Assembly (NCBI RefSeq): GCF_016863655.1
Contig: NZ_BOPH01000072.1
Location: 1-64,000 of the forward strand
Source: Virgisporangium ochraceum
GTDB lineage: Bacteria > Actinomycetota > Actinomycetes > Mycobacteriales > Micromonosporaceae
Length of the DNA stretch: 64,000 nt
Direction: 5' to 3'
The notes beneath the pieces are model-generated. The model saw only the letters and a list, made by a program, of their open reading frames with translations, was not told the DNA's origin and did no database searches. Shown in pieces: positions 2,574 to 26,769 of this stretch (position 1 is its first letter; every line of letters starts with the position of its first letter). The position numbers and the translations under genes were made by a program.

Positions 2574-3956
2574 TCAGCCTCGCATGACCCGGAGGGTCAG
2601 AAGGCGCCACACCAGGGCGTAGCCGACGGTCGTGAGCGCGCACACCGCGACCACCACGCGGGGCGAGACGTGGTCGACGAACACCCCAGCGACGAGCTGG
2701 CTCGCCGCGATGGCCAGGGTCGCGATCATCATGTCGGTGGCGAACACCCGGCCGCGCAGCGCGTCGGGGACCTCCTCCTGCAGGGCGAAGTTCGACATGA
2801 CCCAGTTGCCGCCGCCCGCCAGGTGGGCCACCGTCACGAGGATCAGGGCCAGCCAGAACCACGGCGTCACGGCCACCGCCAGATAGGCCAGGCCGTACAG
2901 CGACATCGACACCGCCAGCGCCGGCAGCAGCAGCTCGCGGCGCTTGAGCACCCAGCGGAACAGCAGCGGGCCGATCAGCGCGCCCGCGCCGCGGGCGGCG
3001 AACAGGAGACCGGTGCCGAGCTCGCCGATCCGGAAGACGACGCTGGCGAGCAGCGGGAAAGCCACGAGGACGCCGTTGCCCAGGCCCACCGCGCTCTTCA
3101 CGGTGACCAGGGCCGCGACCCGCGGACTGCGGCGGATGTACCGGGTCGCCTCGACAAGGGCGTCCCACGCGTGCGGCGCCGGTGCGGTGCGTACGCCGGA
3201 CGCGGCGCTGTGTGGCACGGTGCCGCCGGACGCGGCGCTGTGTGGCACGGTGCCGCCGGACGCGGCGCCGTCAGGCGTCGCGACGCCGCTGGGATGCGGC
3301 GGGGTGTCGAGGACGTCGTGCGGCTCGGTGCCGCTCACGCCGTCTCCACTCATCGGGACGACGGCCTGGAGCGGACGGCGGACCCGCCACACGGCGAAGG
3401 CCGAGGCCAGCAGGCAGAGCACGGTGACGGCGAAGCACCAGTACGGCCCGACCACCGCCGAGACCACGCCGCCCAGCGACGCGCCGACGACGAGCATCGT
3501 GCCCCACGCGGACCCGGCGAGCGCGTTCGCGGTGGCGAGGTCCTCGGGCGGCACGGTGTTGGGGAGCGCGGCCGACGCCGCCGGCGAGTAGAACGCCTTC
3601 GCGATCGCGAACGAGCCCACGGCGACGACCGCGACCCAGGCCGTGCCGGCCGAGCGGACCAGCAGCAGCGCGGCGACCGCGATGATGCCCACGAGGTTCG
3701 CCGTGACCATGACCCGGCGGCGGTCGACGCGGTCGGCGACCGTGCCGGTGTACGGCAGCAGCAGCGCGAGCAGTGCCATGTCGGCGGTCAGCACCAGGCC
3801 GCCCCACAGGCCGCTGCCGGTGAGCTCCGGCAGCAGCGTGAGGAGCGGGATCATGACGAACCAGTCGCCGCCGAAGAGGACCAGTTCGGAGAAGAACAGC
3901 AGGCGGAAGTCGCGGTTCCGGATCAGGACGGTAAGGACCGGGGGCACCCCCCGCAC
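2574..3956 (-). CDS. MFS transporter (exporter type)
   Basis: A 460-aa major facilitator protein with about 12 hydrophobic segments. It starts LIRNRDFRLLFFSELVLF, typical of drug and metabolite exporters of the MFS_3 type. The conserved loop-2/3 signature is seen as DRVDRRRVMVTANL. The central cytoplasmic loop is enlarged by about 50 residues, including a tandem GGTVPHSAAS repeat. The gene begins 1 nt after the thrC stop, so it is very likely co-transcribed with argS-lysA-hom-thrC. This context would suit export of an amino acid or related metabolite, but the substrate cannot be read from sequence. The start is GTG 3956, or GTG 3947 slightly downstream. Confidence 0.85.
   Translation of the reverse strand: MRGVPPVLTVLIRNRDFRLLFFSELVLFGGDWFVMIPLLTLLPELTGSGLWGGLVLTADMALLALLLPYTGTVADRVDRRRVMVTANLVGIIAVAALLLVRSAGTAWVAVVAVGSFAIAKAFYSPAASAALPNTVPPEDLATANALAGSAWGTMLVVGASLGGVVSAVVGPYWCFAVTVLCLLASAFAVWRVRRPLQAVVPMSGDGVSGTEPHDVLDTPPHPSGVATPDGAASGGTVPHSAASGGTVPHSAASGVRTAPAPHAWDALVEATRYIRRSPRVAALVTVKSAVGLGNGVLVAFPLLASVVFRIGELGTGLLFAARGAGALIGPLLFRWVLKRRELLLPALAVSMSLYGLAYLAVAVTPWFWLALILVTVAHLAGGGNWVMSNFALQEEVPDALRGRVFATDMMIATLAIAASQLVAGVFVDHVSPRVVVAVCALTTVGYALVWRLLTLRVMRG
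3195..3267. repeat. 30-bp tandem repeat inside the MFS gene
   Basis: Two perfect 30-bp units (3195-3224, 3225-3254) and a 13-bp third fragment. The unit length is a multiple of three, so the frame is kept and the protein gains ten residues per copy in the central loop. Confidence 0.9.
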
Positions 3957-11128: not shown

Positions 11129-11200
11129 GCCCCCGTAGCTCAGGGGATAGAGCACCGCCCTCCGGAGGCGGGAGCGCAGGTTCGAATCCTGCCGGGGGCA
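11129..11200 (+). tRNA. tRNA-Arg (anticodon CCG)
   Basis: A full cloverleaf: acceptor GCCCCCG pairs with CGGGGGC, the D arm contains AGCTCAGGGGATAGAGC, and the anticodon stem CCGCC/GGCGG holds the loop CTCCGGA with anticodon CCG (reads CGG). The T arm contains GGTTCGAATCC, and the discriminator is A. CCA is not encoded. Its 3' half is the attachment site of the element that follows. Confidence 0.97.
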
Positions 11201-11201
11201 C
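11160..11201 (+). repeat. attL: 42-bp direct repeat in the tRNA-Arg 3' half
   Basis: Identical over 42 bp to 26591-26632. It starts in the anticodon loop, runs through the T arm and acceptor and ends one base beyond the discriminator, so integration left the tRNA intact. Confidence 0.95.
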
Positions 11202-11209
11202 CCAAGCGA

Positions 11210-15025: not shown

Positions 15026-16390
15026 TCAGTGGCCGAGGGCTCGGTCGATCCGCTGTCGTAGCGCCTCGCCGCTCCCGTCGAGGCACTTGGCGTAGATCTT
15101 GTGAAGGATCTCGACGGAGTGACCGGCCCACTCCGCGACGTCGGCTGAGGGAATGCCGCCGTTCAGCCAGGTGGAGACAGCAGCATGCCGGAGGTCGTAC
15201 GGCGTACGGGCCAGAGGCGATGCAGCCACCCGATCGATGAACGTGTCGGCCCGTGCGCGCTTCCACGCTCGGGTGATCGTAAGCTTCGGAAGCTCCGAGT
15301 CGTTGCGCTCGCCCACGAAGATCCGACCGTCCGGGGCGGTGCCGAACTCCGCGATGTGGGCATGCAAGAGGGCCGTCAACTCCGGTGGGCACGGCACGGT
15401 CCGGCTCTCGCCCCGCTCGCGCTGCTTGAGTTGACGCCGGTCGCGGTTCTCGCCGCTGTCCGTCCACTCCTTGCCCGCATGCGGCTCGGCGGTCTCCAAG
15501 TGCAGCTCGCCCCATCCACGTTCAGGTAACGAGAGGTTGTGCTTCTTCAGCGCCACTGCCTCTTCCGGACGCAGCGCGGCGAAGTAGAGGCAGCCGAAGA
15601 ACGCCACCAACCGCGGTCCGCTCCGTTGCTGATCCCGGACGGCATTGAGCACCGAACGGACCTGTAGCGGATTCGCCACCGACCGGCGGTCGACGGCCAG
15701 CACCGGCTTGGGCGGCTTCCACTTCAGCGCTGGTACCGGATTCTTCGACAGCAGCTCGCGTTCTACCGCGTACTCGATTGCCGTGTTGAAGATCTTCCGC
15801 TTGCGGCTGAGCACGCTCGGCGCGGCCTGAGCGCCGTCGAGCCGGCGGGTGAGGCCAGCGAGAACGGCTCGCAGGATGTCCGGCTTGCTCAAGGCCGAGA
15901 CGGGCCTGGTGTGCTTCTCCACCCACCGCAGCGCGGCGGCGACGTCGTCAGGCATGTTCGGGTCGTTGCGACGGTTGGTGTTGAAGCCCCACCGACACAG
16001 TGCCGAGCGGATCAGCTTGTCGTCGGGCTTGCCTCGGACGTTGGAGAACATGGCGGTGGTGACCGTCATCAGAGCCTCGGCGTGCGTGCGCCTGGTCGTG
16101 GCGGCCACGTCGGGCCACTTCATGTCCACGAACTCGCACGCGAACGTGTACCAGGGAACGTCCCTGGTAGTGCGCCGCTTCGAGACGGGCAGCCCCGACG
16201 CGATGTCGAACGCCTCGCCCTTCCTCGCGGCCGACACCAGCTCGGACCGGAAGCTCTCCGCAAGAGCCGACTGCTTGAAGGCTTCCCGCCACTGCTTCCC
16301 TGCGACTACCCATCGGACGTAGTAGCTGGTGCTTCGCGTGCCCTGGTAGACCTCGGTCTTCCAGATCCGGACGTCGAAAGTCGTCTCCAC
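15026..16390 (-). CDS. int: Tyrosine recombinase / integrase
   Basis: 454 aa; expected to recombine the element with the tRNA-Arg site. The N-terminal arm/SAM-like domain (FKQSALAESFRSELVSAAR) precedes the catalytic domain. The first catalytic Arg is in YFAALRPEEAVALKK (about residue 270). Box II reads RTPYDLRHAAVSTWL (about 395), with Tyr in place of the first His as in many AICE integrases. AEWAGHSVEILHKIYAKCLDG (about 415-435) holds the late His and the nucleophilic Tyr. It overlaps xis by 3 bp. It lies 3.9 kb from attL and faces it, with regulator genes in between, which is unusual. Confidence 0.94.
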   Translation of the reverse strand: METTFDVRIWKTEVYQGTRSTSYYVRWVVAGKQWREAFKQSALAESFRSELVSAARKGEAFDIASGLPVSKRRTTRDVPWYTFACEFVDMKWPDVAATTRRTHAEALMTVTTAMFSNVRGKPDDKLIRSALCRWGFNTNRRNDPNMPDDVAAALRWVEKHTRPVSALSKPDILRAVLAGLTRRLDGAQAAPSVLSRKRKIFNTAIEYAVERELLSKNPVPALKWKPPKPVLAVDRRSVANPLQVRSVLNAVRDQQRSGPRLVAFFGCLYFAALRPEEAVALKKHNLSLPERGWGELHLETAEPHAGKEWTDSGENRDRRQLKQRERGESRTVPCPPELTALLHAHIAEFGTAPDGRIFVGERNDSELPKLTITRAWKRARADTFIDRVAASPLARTPYDLRHAAVSTWLNGGIPSADVAEWAGHSVEILHKIYAKCLDGSGEALRQRIDRALGH

Positions 16391-16599: not shown

Positions 16600-16867
16600 G
16601 TCGACCTCCCAGACGATCGACGACGGCCCGCAGCTCGGCGAGCGCGGCCGTCAGGTGGACCAGGGCGGCCTCGTCGCCGGGCGGGAGCGCGACGCGGAGC
16701 CGGATCTCGGCCAGCTCGCGGCCAGCGGGGTCGGCGACCCGGGTCAGTTCGCCGGTGGCGATTGGTACGCCGGCCGAACCAAGAGCCATCACGGCGACCG
16801 GCGCGGCTCGGTGCTCGCCGAGGGCGCATCCGGCGCCCAGGGCGCACCACTCGGGGTGGCGGCTCAT
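16586..16867 (-). CDS. Small AICE protein, DUF6907-like
   Basis: 93 aa starting MSRHPEWCALGAGCALGEHR at ATG 16867. It has a Cys/His-containing N-terminus, a beta-rich middle and an acidic helix ending LTAALAELRAVVDRLG. It resembles the small DUF6907-like proteins common beside AICE xis genes and is a possible distant relative of the 89-aa protein at 21544. It overlaps xis by 14 bp and the upstream gene by 4 bp, so it is part of the same message. Function unknown. Confidence 0.65.
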   Translation of the reverse strand: MSRHPEWCALGAGCALGEHRAAPVAVMALGSAGVPIATGELTRVADPAGRELAEIRLRVALPPGDEAALVHLTAALAELRAVVDRLGGRHEAR

Positions 16868-17112
16868 CGGGTGCCGTCCCGGTGAATGCGAGCCGCTTGG
16901 TTCCAGAGGTGGCGGCCGAGCCGGATGCGGATGCCGGTCGCGTTGCAGTGTCGGCAGAGCCGGCCGCGTGGGGTGCCGGGCCGGACACGGCCGAGGCCGT
17001 TGCAGCGACGGCACGGGCCGAACGGTGAGGCGGCGCAGAGCGCGGCGTAGCAGAGGGTGAAGAGAACGAAGGTCGGGCAGAGCAGGCTAGCGATCAAGGA
17101 CAGGGAGTCCAC
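16864..17112 (-). CDS. Membrane protein with two CxxC zinc motifs
   Basis: 82 aa. A hydrophobic N-terminal segment (SLIASLLCPTFVLFTLCYAA) is followed by CRRCNGLGRV and CRHCNATGIRIR, a DnaJ-like cysteine-rich pair that probably binds one zinc. Proteins of this form recur in actinomycete elements next to the translocase gene. GTG 17112 follows a GAGGAG site; the open frame continues upstream to 17151. Role in transfer is suggested only by position. Confidence 0.7.
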   Translation of the reverse strand: MDSLSLIASLLCPTFVLFTLCYAALCAASPFGPCRRCNGLGRVRPGTPRGRLCRHCNATGIRIRLGRHLWNQAARIHRDGTR

Positions 17113-17162
17113 GGAGTGCTCCTCAGCGAGGTTCGAGGTCGAAGGGCGCACCGGCGATAGAG

Positions 17163-17242
17163 CGCTAGTGCGCAGGTGAGAGGCGGTCTCGGCCGCTAGC
17201 GGGGCCGCTAGGTCTAGCGGGTCGGGCCGATAGACCTAGCGG
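17163..17242. repeat. CTAG-rich repeat cluster, candidate clt/TraB recognition region
   Basis: In the gap just past the translocase stop, CCGCTAG or its complement CTAGCGG occurs five times within 50 bp (17193-17199, 17196-17202, 17205-17211, 17214-17220, 17236-17242), including the palindrome CCGCTAGCGG, plus a CGCTAG at 17163. Streptomyces TraB proteins bind short direct repeats (TRS) in a clt locus close to the traB 3' end. Position and repetition fit; the repeat sequence is not one I know. Confidence 0.5.
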
Positions 17243-17251
17243 CTCGCGCGG

Positions 17252-19405
17252 CTATGCGGCCTTGCCTCGGTGGTCACGGTCGGCGACGGCCGCAGCGACG
17301 TCGGCGCGATGGATGCCCTTGCGGTTGGCGCCCTTGCCGGTGGCGGGGTCGGTTGCCCAGACCTGCCGGCCGACCGTGACGCCGTACGGCTTGAGCACGG
17401 CGGCGAGTTGGGCCGGCTCCCAACCGTCGTAGACATCCGGGCGTAGCTCGATAAGGCGCGCCACAACGGTCTCCGACCAGACCTTGGCCTCGGCGACCGG
17501 GACGACGGCGAGGATGTCGTCGAGCAACGTGTCCCGGGCAGCGACGGCCAGGGCGTGAAGTTCGCCGGCCGCGTGGCCGCTCAACGTTCCGGCAGCCTCG
17601 CGGAGCGCTCGGGCGCGCGTCACCACGGCTTCGACGTCGGCAGCGGCGGCGAGGTAGGTCCGTACGGTCACGGCCTCGTCGACGGCTCCGGAGTCGTCAG
17701 CGCCCAACAGGATGCCGACTCCCTTGTGCGCCCGCTGGAAGCGCGAGGAGTCGTGGCCGGCTCCGTACGATCCGGCGCCCAGCACGGCCTCGGAGGACTG
17801 CCACGTCATCGTCTTGAGGGCGAACCGCGTCCCGATGTTGTCGCGCAGGTCCGTGGGGACGGCCTTGCCGTCGGGCTTCTGGGTGAGCAGCACGACCATG
17901 ATGCCGACGGCCGGACCGACCTTGCACAGCTCGGTCAGCAGCGACACGATCTCGTCGCCGTGCGCTGGGTGGCCGCTGTAGCGCTGGAACTCGTCGATGG
18001 CGATGAGCACCGGCCACAGTCGCAGCGCGCGCTTCGTGGCGATGGCGCGGGTCACCTTGCCCTCTGGGCAGAAGTCCGCCGGCAACGCGCCGATCGTGTC
18101 GTACCGGCGGTTCATGTCGGCGACGAGGGTGCGCAGATCGTCCACAAGAGACTGCACGACGTCGTCCCTGACGCCGAAGCCGATCCGGTGCGCGATCCGC
18201 TCGAACGGCAGCCAGTCGACCGGACCCTTGCCGTTGTAGACGTGCAGCTCGACGATCGGGTCGAGCGCGCAGGCGAGCACCGGCAGCCGGCCGGCGAACG
18301 TCTTGCCCATGCGCGGAATCGCGCCGACGAGCAGCGACGTGAACATGAGCAGCAGCGGCACCGGTCCGCCGCGCTGATCCTCGCCGAACGGGAACGGCGC
18401 GAAGATGTCGACCTCACCACGGGCGATGAGCGGCCACGGGCCGGACGGCTTGGCGTACGGGTCCTCGTCGGCGACCCAAAGCGCGAGCCGCCGCGCCGAT
18501 CCGGCAGTCCCCCGCACCCGTGACGGCCACACCTGTACCTCGTCGAGGTCGAGCCCGGCGGCGAGGTCGGTGCGCTTCTTGATGGCCCTATCCGCGGTGA
18601 TGCCGAACGGCAGGTCGATGACGGCCCGCCACCCCGGACCGTCGCGCACGATGGGCGCGGGGAACGTGATGGGATCGTCCACTTTGCACAGTCCACATGC
18701 GAGGAATGCGCGCACGACCACGTCGGCCGTCAGCCGTCGCACGCGCGGCTTCACCGCAGCCACGTCCAACAGGGGCTTGTCGGGCGTGGAGCCGATCCAA
18801 CCGAGTAGCCCGACCACGACGGCGGTCGCGACCCAGCAAGCCGACCGTGAGTCGGCGATCAGCAGTGCGATCACGGTGACCGACACAGCGGTCGATGCGG
18901 CGATCAGGACGAGCGTGCGGAGCCGCACGCGGGCATCGCGTTGGCGGGAGAGCTTCAGGTAGTCCTCGGCGTCCTCCCGCCGGACGGCGGCGAGGCGCAC
19001 CGGGAGCCCTTCGGCGTCGCTGGCCCATCGCGAGGTAGCCGCGACCGACCGGACGAGGCCGCGCGGTGAGCGGACGAATAGCCGCCCGACGTAGAGCGGG
19101 ATGCGGGTCAAGTGGTACGCGATGACGTGGCTGTAATGGCCGACCACCCACCGCGCCACCGCGGCGGCCTCGGCGCGCGACCGCAGCCACGCCGGGACGA
19201 TCGGCCGCCGCTCGGTCCTGCGGGCCGCGACCGGCGGATCGACCGGGATCGGCTCGTCGCCGATCTCGTCGCGCTCGTCGTCGATGTCGAATGCTTCCGC
19301 GGGACGGCGTTGCGCCCGCGCCTTGCCGAGGTCGACCACATCGGCACCGGCGAGGTCGGCTTCGAGGGCCGCCCAGTCGATGCCGTCGGGTTCGGGGCTT
19401 GCCAT
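17252..19405 (-). CDS. FtsK/SpoIIIE (TraB-type) DNA translocase
   Basis: 717 aa. It is expected to pump double-stranded element DNA between hyphae, the single-protein conjugation mode of actinomycetes. There are two adjacent membrane helices (about residues 165-200). An FtsK motor follows with Walker A GAIPRMGKTFAGRLPVL (about 362), Walker B VLIAIDEFQRYSG (about 467) and LTQKPDGKAVP. A C-terminal winged-helix region (LIELRPDVYDGWEPAQLAAV) could read DNA repeats. ATG 19405 follows GGAGGACT; an in-frame extension to 19723 has no comparable site. It is the last gene of the DUF6284-SMP-DUF2637 transfer operon. Confidence 0.9.
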   Translation of the reverse strand: MASPEPDGIDWAALEADLAGADVVDLGKARAQRRPAEAFDIDDERDEIGDEPIPVDPPVAARRTERRPIVPAWLRSRAEAAAVARWVVGHYSHVIAYHLTRIPLYVGRLFVRSPRGLVRSVAATSRWASDAEGLPVRLAAVRREDAEDYLKLSRQRDARVRLRTLVLIAASTAVSVTVIALLIADSRSACWVATAVVVGLLGWIGSTPDKPLLDVAAVKPRVRRLTADVVVRAFLACGLCKVDDPITFPAPIVRDGPGWRAVIDLPFGITADRAIKKRTDLAAGLDLDEVQVWPSRVRGTAGSARRLALWVADEDPYAKPSGPWPLIARGEVDIFAPFPFGEDQRGGPVPLLLMFTSLLVGAIPRMGKTFAGRLPVLACALDPIVELHVYNGKGPVDWLPFERIAHRIGFGVRDDVVQSLVDDLRTLVADMNRRYDTIGALPADFCPEGKVTRAIATKRALRLWPVLIAIDEFQRYSGHPAHGDEIVSLLTELCKVGPAVGIMVVLLTQKPDGKAVPTDLRDNIGTRFALKTMTWQSSEAVLGAGSYGAGHDSSRFQRAHKGVGILLGADDSGAVDEAVTVRTYLAAAADVEAVVTRARALREAAGTLSGHAAGELHALAVAARDTLLDDILAVVPVAEAKVWSETVVARLIELRPDVYDGWEPAQLAAVLKPYGVTVGRQVWATDPATGKGANRKGIHRADVAAAVADRDHRGKAA

Positions 19406-24605: not shown

Positions 24606-24708
24606 GAGACACCAAAGCAAGCGGATTCCGTTCCCTCGCCGCAGGACGCTGGGCGGTGCGCTCGCGATCGAAGCGTGTCGGAGGTCCATCTCAGATCGGT
24701 GAATACCG

Positions 24709-26103: not shown

Positions 26104-26590
26104 TCCATACTCCAAGCAGTAACAGCACGACAGTGCGTCCGCGACAGACCCCTTGTGTCTAGCTCAGTGTAGTGGAGCGGTCACGACCGCACCTGCCTCC
26201 GGTCGACGGGCTTCCCACCGAGCCGAGCTGCTGAGGTTGCGCCGCCCGTCCAGATGTCAACGAACTGTCCGACGCTCAAGAAGCAAGCCCCTCCTCCAAT
26301 TACGACAAATTGCTAGAAATTGCATATACCATACGTTGCTATAAGAAGTGTGTCGGGCTGTTACGTCTGCGCGCCGCAACCTCTCGGTGTGAACTTGCTC
26401 AGCGATTTCATACCGCCCTGGGAGATCGATTTGACACCCGCGATCGCTCGTTTTGTGTCCGGGCGCTCGGTTTCACTGATTAACCGTTCCATCTTGCGTG
26501 CCAAACCCTTGCCAAACTCGGTGGGAACGATCAAGCCACACGAGCATTCAACCGGGTCATCGGCTTGCTGGTCTCGACATGAGCCGCGCT
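26104..26590. other. AT-richer intergenic end of the element
   Basis: 487 bp between the AlbA_2 gene and attR. It must hold the promoter of the minus-strand gene and the right arm of the element. Open frames here are short, have no ribosome sites and run through attR, so I call no gene. No repeats beyond attR were seen. Confidence 0.6.
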
Positions 26591-26632
26591 CTCCGGAGGC
26601 GGGAGCGCAGGTTCGAATCCTGCCGGGGGCAC
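26591..26632 (+). repeat. attR: 42-bp copy of the tRNA-Arg 3' half
   Basis: Exact match to 11160-11201. The upstream flank (gccgcgct) does not restore an anticodon stem, so this is the displaced attachment copy and not a second tRNA. Confidence 0.95.
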
Positions 26633-26769
26633 ACAGAACATCTCACCCGTCCAGCGACGGCTCTGCAAGCGCCACCTCAGCTTACGATTTGGTGGCACAT
26701 GGTTGCTGCAATCGCATGATGACGCCGCGAGGCGTCGCCCGCGATAGACGAGAGGTCCGGCAAGCCGCG

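Follow-up and report, generated by a model that had tools for sequence, protein, structure and literature searches.

A palindromic half-site array behind a TraB-type translocase gene as putative clt of an actinomycete element family

Directly behind the gene of a TraB-type DNA translocase, the genome of Virgisporangium ochraceum carries a dense group of CTAG-containing words, which raises the question of what these words are for and which protein reads them. The window considered here is the whole 64,000-nt stretch of DNA that was analysed. A first-pass annotation of this stretch had noted five CCGCTAG/CTAGCGG words within 50 bp directly past the stop codon of a TraB-type gene, had pointed to the rarity of CTAG and had proposed a candidate clt. 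In this report we describe the repeat array and its host element, trace both through homologous loci, link the letters of the repeats to a residue of the translocase and weigh the clt reading against its rivals.

The array and its host element

The five CCGCTAG/CTAGCGG words are located within positions 17193-17242, at 17193 (+), 17196 (-), 17205 (+), 17214 (-) and 17236 (-). The stop codon of the translocase gene (TAG, minus strand) occupies 17252-17254, and the cluster therefore covers the stretch from 10 to 59 nt beyond the stop. The remaining CCGCTAG copies at 24706 and 37822 bring the total in the window to 7, which is not above chance (mean of 6.4 in dinucleotide shuffles). The maximum per 50 bp was 1 in 272 and 2 in 28 of 300 shuffles, compared with 5 observed. 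CTAG itself is three-fold depleted across the window (24 observed vs 71.8 expected). The word count, the position directly past the stop and, within the window, the rarity of CTAG all held as first annotated.

The view of a simple direct, CTAG-based repeat required correction: the array is built from 8-bp half-sites in head-to-head pairs, and CTAG is dispensable. On the coding (minus) strand, the stop is followed in order by CCGCTAGGTCTATCGG, CCGCTAGACCTAGCGG and CCGCTAGCGG, i.e., two 16-bp palindromes and a third box. Box A (17227..17242) reads CCGCTAGG and TCTATCGG on the coding strand, box B (17205..17220; centre 22 bp from that of box A) reads CCGCTAGA and CCTAGCGG, and box C (17193..17202) is CCGCTAGCGG. 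After CTCACCTGCG, the degenerate boxes D/E (ACTAGCGC and CTATCGC; 17155..17169) represent the positional counterpart of a second CTAG pair that is present in most homologues. The originally annotated span, which began at 17163, includes a weaker copy, CACTAGCG, with its CTAG at 17165. Another CTAG copy lies within the opening codons of the small gene that follows (17087..17090), and similar copies are found in homologues. The array and its place are shown. As a side observation, the word CTGACCTGCG / CTGATCAGCG at 17171-17180, which separates boxes A-C from boxes D/E, is conserved at the same place in homologues, also occurs in the Streptomyces plasmid pSVH1 (locus L284, after 4035) and appears to be invariant with respect to the half-site code.

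The host is an integrated actinomycete integrative conjugative element (AICE) of 15.4 kb, the ends of which are marked by 55-nt direct repeats. The first repeat (11150..11204) lies within tRNA-Arg(CCG) (11129-11202), and the second (26581..26635), 93% identical to the first, is 15,431 bp away. The element encodes a tyrosine integrase (15026..16390, minus strand; Pfam PF00589, E 1.2e-6) and the translocase P0001 (17252..19405, minus strand; likely ATG at 19405). A Pfam search of P0001 at E 0.1 returned no match whatever. The criterion for an FtsK/SpoIIIE-type translocase (TraB), homology in the motor domain, was met by tblastn to pSVH1 TraB (31.5% over residues 228-612, the motor; E 6e-35), and the TraB-type label given at first pass thus held despite the missing Pfam match. 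The adjoining small gene (16864..17112, minus strand; GTG start at 17112 inferred) codes for a product with a hydrophobic N-terminus and two CxxC motifs (CRRCNGLG, CRHCNATG), a homologue of which was found in 43 of 53 wide loci. Pfam and NCBIfam searches of the neighbouring genes gave little besides the integrase, DUF6284 and regulators.

The exact 16-bp palindrome CCGCTAGNNCTAGCGG, for which the genome-wide count was done, occurs in two places in the whole 11.43-Mb genome (200 contigs), both directly past the stops of translocase genes. This genome harbours two further long translocase paralogues and one fragmentary match. The paralogue on contig C7 (45% identical) carries the same array just past its own stop, and the paralogue on contig C69 (33%) has GGTAGCGG repeats in place of the array, overlapping its own TAG stop. 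Among the direct-repeat variants (L015 at about 8190-8300 on contig C69, as well as L071, L077, L274 and L275), the TAG stop of the translocase was seen to fall within a GGTAGCGG-type half-site, and thus the end of the gene and the site overlap.

Recurrence of the array and covariation with a wing residue

Homologous loci were drawn from two sources: one scan of named genomes, which yielded 60 loci, and a second search with matches in 18/41 genomes of relatives, 158/354 of the family, 82/397 of the order and 60/394 of the class. In one of the wider searches many matches end near residue 620. Beyond the loci retrieved automatically, 100 further places were picked by hand for fetching, mostly for matches running into the C-terminal domain, and more matches existed than were fetched. 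Of the loci matched by the translocase, 271 had a stop codon (L070 lacks one), and 235 of them were retained once loci with less than 120 nt of downstream DNA and duplicates, defined by identity of the first 70 nt after the stop, had been dropped. Five more were excluded by hand prior to alignment, leaving 230: the matches of L091, L094 and L099 fall short of the C-terminus, and L063 and L069 (Crossiella) encode homologous translocases followed by DNA without a CTAG-type array. The latter two are counter-examples to recurrence.

A caller working on the DNA alone, blind to the protein, identified a palindromic array of 8-bp half-sites past the stop in 200 of the 230 aligned loci, with a TAG core in 187 of these 200 and at least two palindromes in 147; 29 loci were without a call and one was ambiguous. 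Applied to 4,515 control stretches from these loci, the same caller made 161 calls of any kind, three with at least two palindromes and none with a TAG core. The fraction of 200/230 cannot be read as the prevalence among all distant homologues, because the 100 further places were picked mostly for a match into the C-terminal domain. By eye, many of the uncalled loci show direct repeats or single palindromes (e.g., L011, L054, L076, L077, L254 and L264), and in L166, L177 and L272 no array is clearly visible past the stop. The centres of boxes A and B are 22 bp apart in 129 of 147 loci, 21 bp in 7 and 23 bp in 11. Across 47 loci, an element's own half-site reaches 6.38 copies per 250 bp in the 250 bp past the stop; none of the remaining 39 bins within +/-5 kb exceeds 0.09. 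The absence of the cluster in close homologous elements, which the first-pass annotation had named as a refutation, was looked for; the proposal was not refuted, and the cluster recurs behind most homologues examined.

The letters around TAG vary between elements, e.g., TAGCGG or TAGCAC, TAGAGC or TAGACC, and TAGGAC, and rarer types comprise GGTCGCGG, GCAAGCGG and GTAACC. CTAG is not obligatory, as the GGTAGCGG, GGTCGCGG and GCAAGCGG variants show. Within one element the copies change in concert: box C agrees with boxes A and B at the half-site letter x6 in 140 of the 142 loci with a CTAG there. Recurrence and concerted variation are shown. L048 and L052 (Actinomadura) contain palindromes that appeared mixed by eye but were not called, one half being TAGCGG-like and the other TAGACC-like, with arginine at the wing position.

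The C-terminal 110 amino acids of P0001 (17255..17584, minus strand) are predicted by AlphaFold2 to form a winged helix (mean pLDDT 85.7), with helices at model residues 37-47 and 57-67, a hairpin at 73-78/85-92 and a helix at 93-109; the predicted model thus meets the winged-helix criterion of helices followed by a beta-hairpin wing. Its best structural neighbours are mostly generic winged helices (Z at most 6.8). A Foldseek search with the model gave no match at E under 0.001, and querying the PDB by sequence, with either the C-terminal profile or P0001, produced no significant hit. FtsK gamma is absent among the listed neighbours, which excludes nothing. The wing hairpin comprises residues 687-701 (W687 to G701; 17315..17359, minus strand; K700 codon at 17318-17320). 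W687 (model residue 76) is located on its first strand and K700 (model residue 89) on its second.

In the aligned translocase C-termini, the residue preceding the glycine of a conserved NRxG stretch, K700 in P0001, tracks x6. Over both locus sets, x6 = C goes with R (115), K (30) or Y (5), x6 = A with I (12), M (9), N (3), F (2) or K (1), and x6 = G with G (7), Q (2) or A (1). Among 614 columns the K700 column ranks first (U of x6 given the column, 0.92; runner-up, 0.41). When only the 47 wide loci are used, a different column of the translocase scores 0.88 for x6 by relatedness. Arg or Lys facing the G opposite C, and hydrophobic residues facing the T opposite A, would be chemically sensible. 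For x1 and x2 the top-scoring column is W687 (U 0.57 and 0.68, respectively); for x7 and x8 no translocase column gives a clear signal (best U 0.31-0.32). A link between x4 and N698 (U = 1.00) is not claimed, since it rests on only nine loci of one variant type. K700 and W687 both lie in hairpin strands, and therefore the wing, not the third helix, carries the covarying residues; for pSVH1 TraB, helix alpha-3 and not the wing is quoted as the specificity element (PMC3583192).

The residue-letter rule was fixed in writing ahead of fetching the second locus set. In 123 newly called loci, 113 follow the prior rule, 4 contradict it and 6 are silent, their residues not being covered. The rule-breakers are L121 (K with A) and L149, L270 and L273 (N with A; the rule had grouped N with G). 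Only 17 of the new loci are of a non-C type, and 10 of these follow the rule. As exceptions to the x6 code itself there remain K with x6 = A in L121, Y with C in five loci and, as read by eye, mixed half-sites (one TAGC, one TAGA) beside R in L048 and L052.

Relatedness was addressed on a tree built from the motor domain, with the last part of the protein omitted. On this tree x6 changed at least 16 times, and 13 of 14 tree-independent pairs agree while none opposes (p = 0.00024); with Y counted apart from R/K, the figure is 12/14 or 11/14. In identity-screened pairs differing in x6, the K700 column differs in 13 of 13, vs a fraction of 0.18 of matched pairs sharing x6. The covariation with the wing residue is shown.

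Further evidence comes from pairs of similar elements. The DNA of L074 and L043 is 76-95% identical per 150-nt block up to 278 nt before the stop. Identity falls to 74% and then 61% over the final two gene blocks and amounts to 78% in the first block past the stop and 70-93% thereafter. L074 has TAGCGG and R, L043 has TAGAGA and I, and wing residue and boxes thus differ together. L074 and L075 show the same dip, whereas L043 and L075, which have their letters in common, are 85-97% identical throughout. As judged from the sequences, the DNA-binding wing domain and the boxes have been exchanged together between otherwise similar elements. The covariation argument rests chiefly on the tree and the swap; the comparison with other proteins is weak on its own.

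Proposed function and rival explanations

We consider it highly probable that the cluster is the clt of this AICE family and is read by the cognate translocase. This reading rests on the recurrence, the matched variants, the covariation of K700 with x6, the joint exchange and the pSVH1 repeats at the same place; there are no binding or transfer data. The cluster in the window meets the testable features of a clt, and its recognition by the translocase is strongly supported by the covariation, in the absence of a binding assay. The candidate clt reading of the first-pass annotation is accordingly supported and right in substance, with binding and transfer inferred.

In the proposed mechanism, the C-terminal winged helix of the element's own TraB-type translocase would read each half-site, and the wing hairpin would set the letters, W687 for x1/x2 and K700 for x6. 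Binding would load the translocase onto the element's own circular double-stranded DNA, and the loaded translocase would pump this DNA into the recipient. The boxes would act as an address label that lets an element pick out its own DNA for cell-to-cell transfer. Physical binding, loading, transfer and the mutual exclusivity of different letter sets are inferred. A bolder reading combines a readable code (K700 with x6, W687 with x1/x2), a wing domain and site that would move as a cassette of about 400 bp, and letter sets that would block cross-transfer of co-resident elements; we favour this version by a narrow margin.

A first rival explanation holds that the translocase binds the boxes mainly as an operator or assembly site controlling the downstream genes, and not as clt. 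In its favour, the boxes occupy the gap that separates the translocase stop from the next gene, and one copy falls within the opening codons of that gene. However, no sigma-70-like promoter was found in 16800-17600 (actinomycete promoters often being of another type), and known clt loci occupy the same place. We regard this alternative as unlikely.

A second rival takes boxes A and B as the 17-bp stem of an RNA hairpin or terminator at the end of the tra transcript. It is backed by the RNA fold (z -3.6, MFE -52.5 kcal/mol), by the pairing of A with B (14.86 of 16 vs 13.53 +/- 0.12 with B taken from another locus of the same core) and by the outer arms, whose letters coincide at x7x8 in 0.72 of weighted loci and at x1x2 in 0.85. 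Yet box C, outside the stem, still changes with the code (140/142), some elements have direct repeats (L011, L076, L077), and the hairpin leaves the link to K700 unexplained. Moreover, the criterion for a rho-independent terminator, a G+C-rich stem and a T-run, is not met, as the stem is present and the T-run absent. This explanation is very improbable.

The geometry of boxes A and B nevertheless exceeds what half-sites need. Their centres pair GGTC with GACC in 83 loci, are reversed in 19 and have the same orientation in 8, and the two halves of one box share letters in only 0.21-0.29 of weighted loci, less than the outer arms. As A and B are mirror images with outer arms sharing letters, the region is also a long, fold-back inverted repeat. 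Such a repeat could be of use to a hairpin or cruciform, or to a pair of pumps loaded facing opposite ways; the clt reading leaves it unexplained.

Less probable still than the hairpin is a replication origin, with the boxes as iterons bound by what we take to be primase-polymerase or DUF3631-like replication proteins (these labels, like those of the upstream HTH and small-ORF families, come from reading the sequences). The boxes are repeated like iterons, and homologues of replication genes come next in many relatives. Against this, the wing residue reaches U = 1.00 on the same loci, vs 0.76 for the best primase-polymerase column (28-29 loci) and 0.93, by relatedness, for the best DUF3631-like column (21 loci); furthermore, only small ORFs, by reading, lie between the boxes and int in the window, and the site stays beside the translocase gene. 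Taken over small ORF, GntR, upstream HTH, primase-polymerase, DUF3631-like protein and integrase, the best columns score 0.70-0.93 vs 1.00 for the wing, in samples of 21 to 40 loci with values inflated by relatedness.

A site of the adjoining small CxxC protein, suggested by SpdA2 of pIJ101, which binds palindromes in its own gene (PMC4170104), and by the copy in the first codons of the small gene, is all but ruled out: the small proteins of L031 and L043 are nearly alike while their boxes differ (TAGCG and TAGAG, respectively), which makes this protein an unlikely reader, its best column has a U of 0.77 vs 1.00 for the wing, and it lacks, by reading, an SRDD/E motif.

Under the preferred clt reading, a clt candidate has been located in about 200 elements at once. 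The residue-to-base rule predicts which translocase should accept which site, and thus cross-mobilisation, chromosome mobilisation and pump specificity become testable by single-residue or single-base changes.

Comparison with known systems

TraB binds 8-bp repeats at clt via its C-terminal winged helix (PMC3583192), and a review likewise describes TraB as acting on 8-bp clt repeats (PMC12857230). In pSVH1, copies of GACCCGGA are located at 3944, 3966, 3998 and 4019 of L284, behind the traB stop at 3926-3928, and the starts at 3944 and 3966 place the first pair again 22 bp apart. The window array resembles this clt/TRS in that 8-bp repeats follow the translocase gene directly, that two of these repeats have a 22-bp spacing and that the CTGACCTGCG word comes after them, and in a homologous motor. 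In contrast, the pSVH1 repeats are mostly direct and of other sequence (GACCCGGA), while the window array consists of head-to-head palindromes. Between the C-terminal profile and the pSVH1 TraB C-terminus, hhalign detected no likeness (probability 0.4%, not significant). A literature search on GACCCGGA gave only unrelated papers among the matches inspected, a small part of all.

The clt of pWTY27 spans the final 16 bp of traA plus 159 bp of adjoining DNA, contains direct and inverted repeats and is bound by TraA (PMC3583192). The similarity lies in a repeat-bearing site at the end of the transfer gene and, by inference for the window, in its binding by the element's own protein; unlike in the window, the repeat words are TGACACC and CCCGCCC, and pWTY27 is not an AICE. 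The sps palindromes of pIJ101 are also short and close to a small gene of the transfer region, but they lie inside spdA2 and are bound by SpdA2, and their deletion left transfer unaffected (PMC4170104). An identity of the boxes with sps, a 12-bp palindrome inside the spdA sequence coding for SRDD/E, was considered and not met: the main boxes are intergenic and the neighbouring protein is without SRDD/E.

The KOPS of FtsK are 8-bp words read by the C-terminal winged helix (gamma domain) of a hexameric DNA pump. KOPS are single-direction words spread over the chromosome, whereas the window boxes are clustered at one place.

According to a 2022 survey, no clt had been described for the model AICE pSAM2; the survey also raises the question of whether co-resident elements each rely on their own TraB pore or borrow that of another (PMC9513070). 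Neither an AICE clt nor a residue-letter code was found in the open-access literature searched. What the present array adds to these known systems is a letter code linked to a wing residue.
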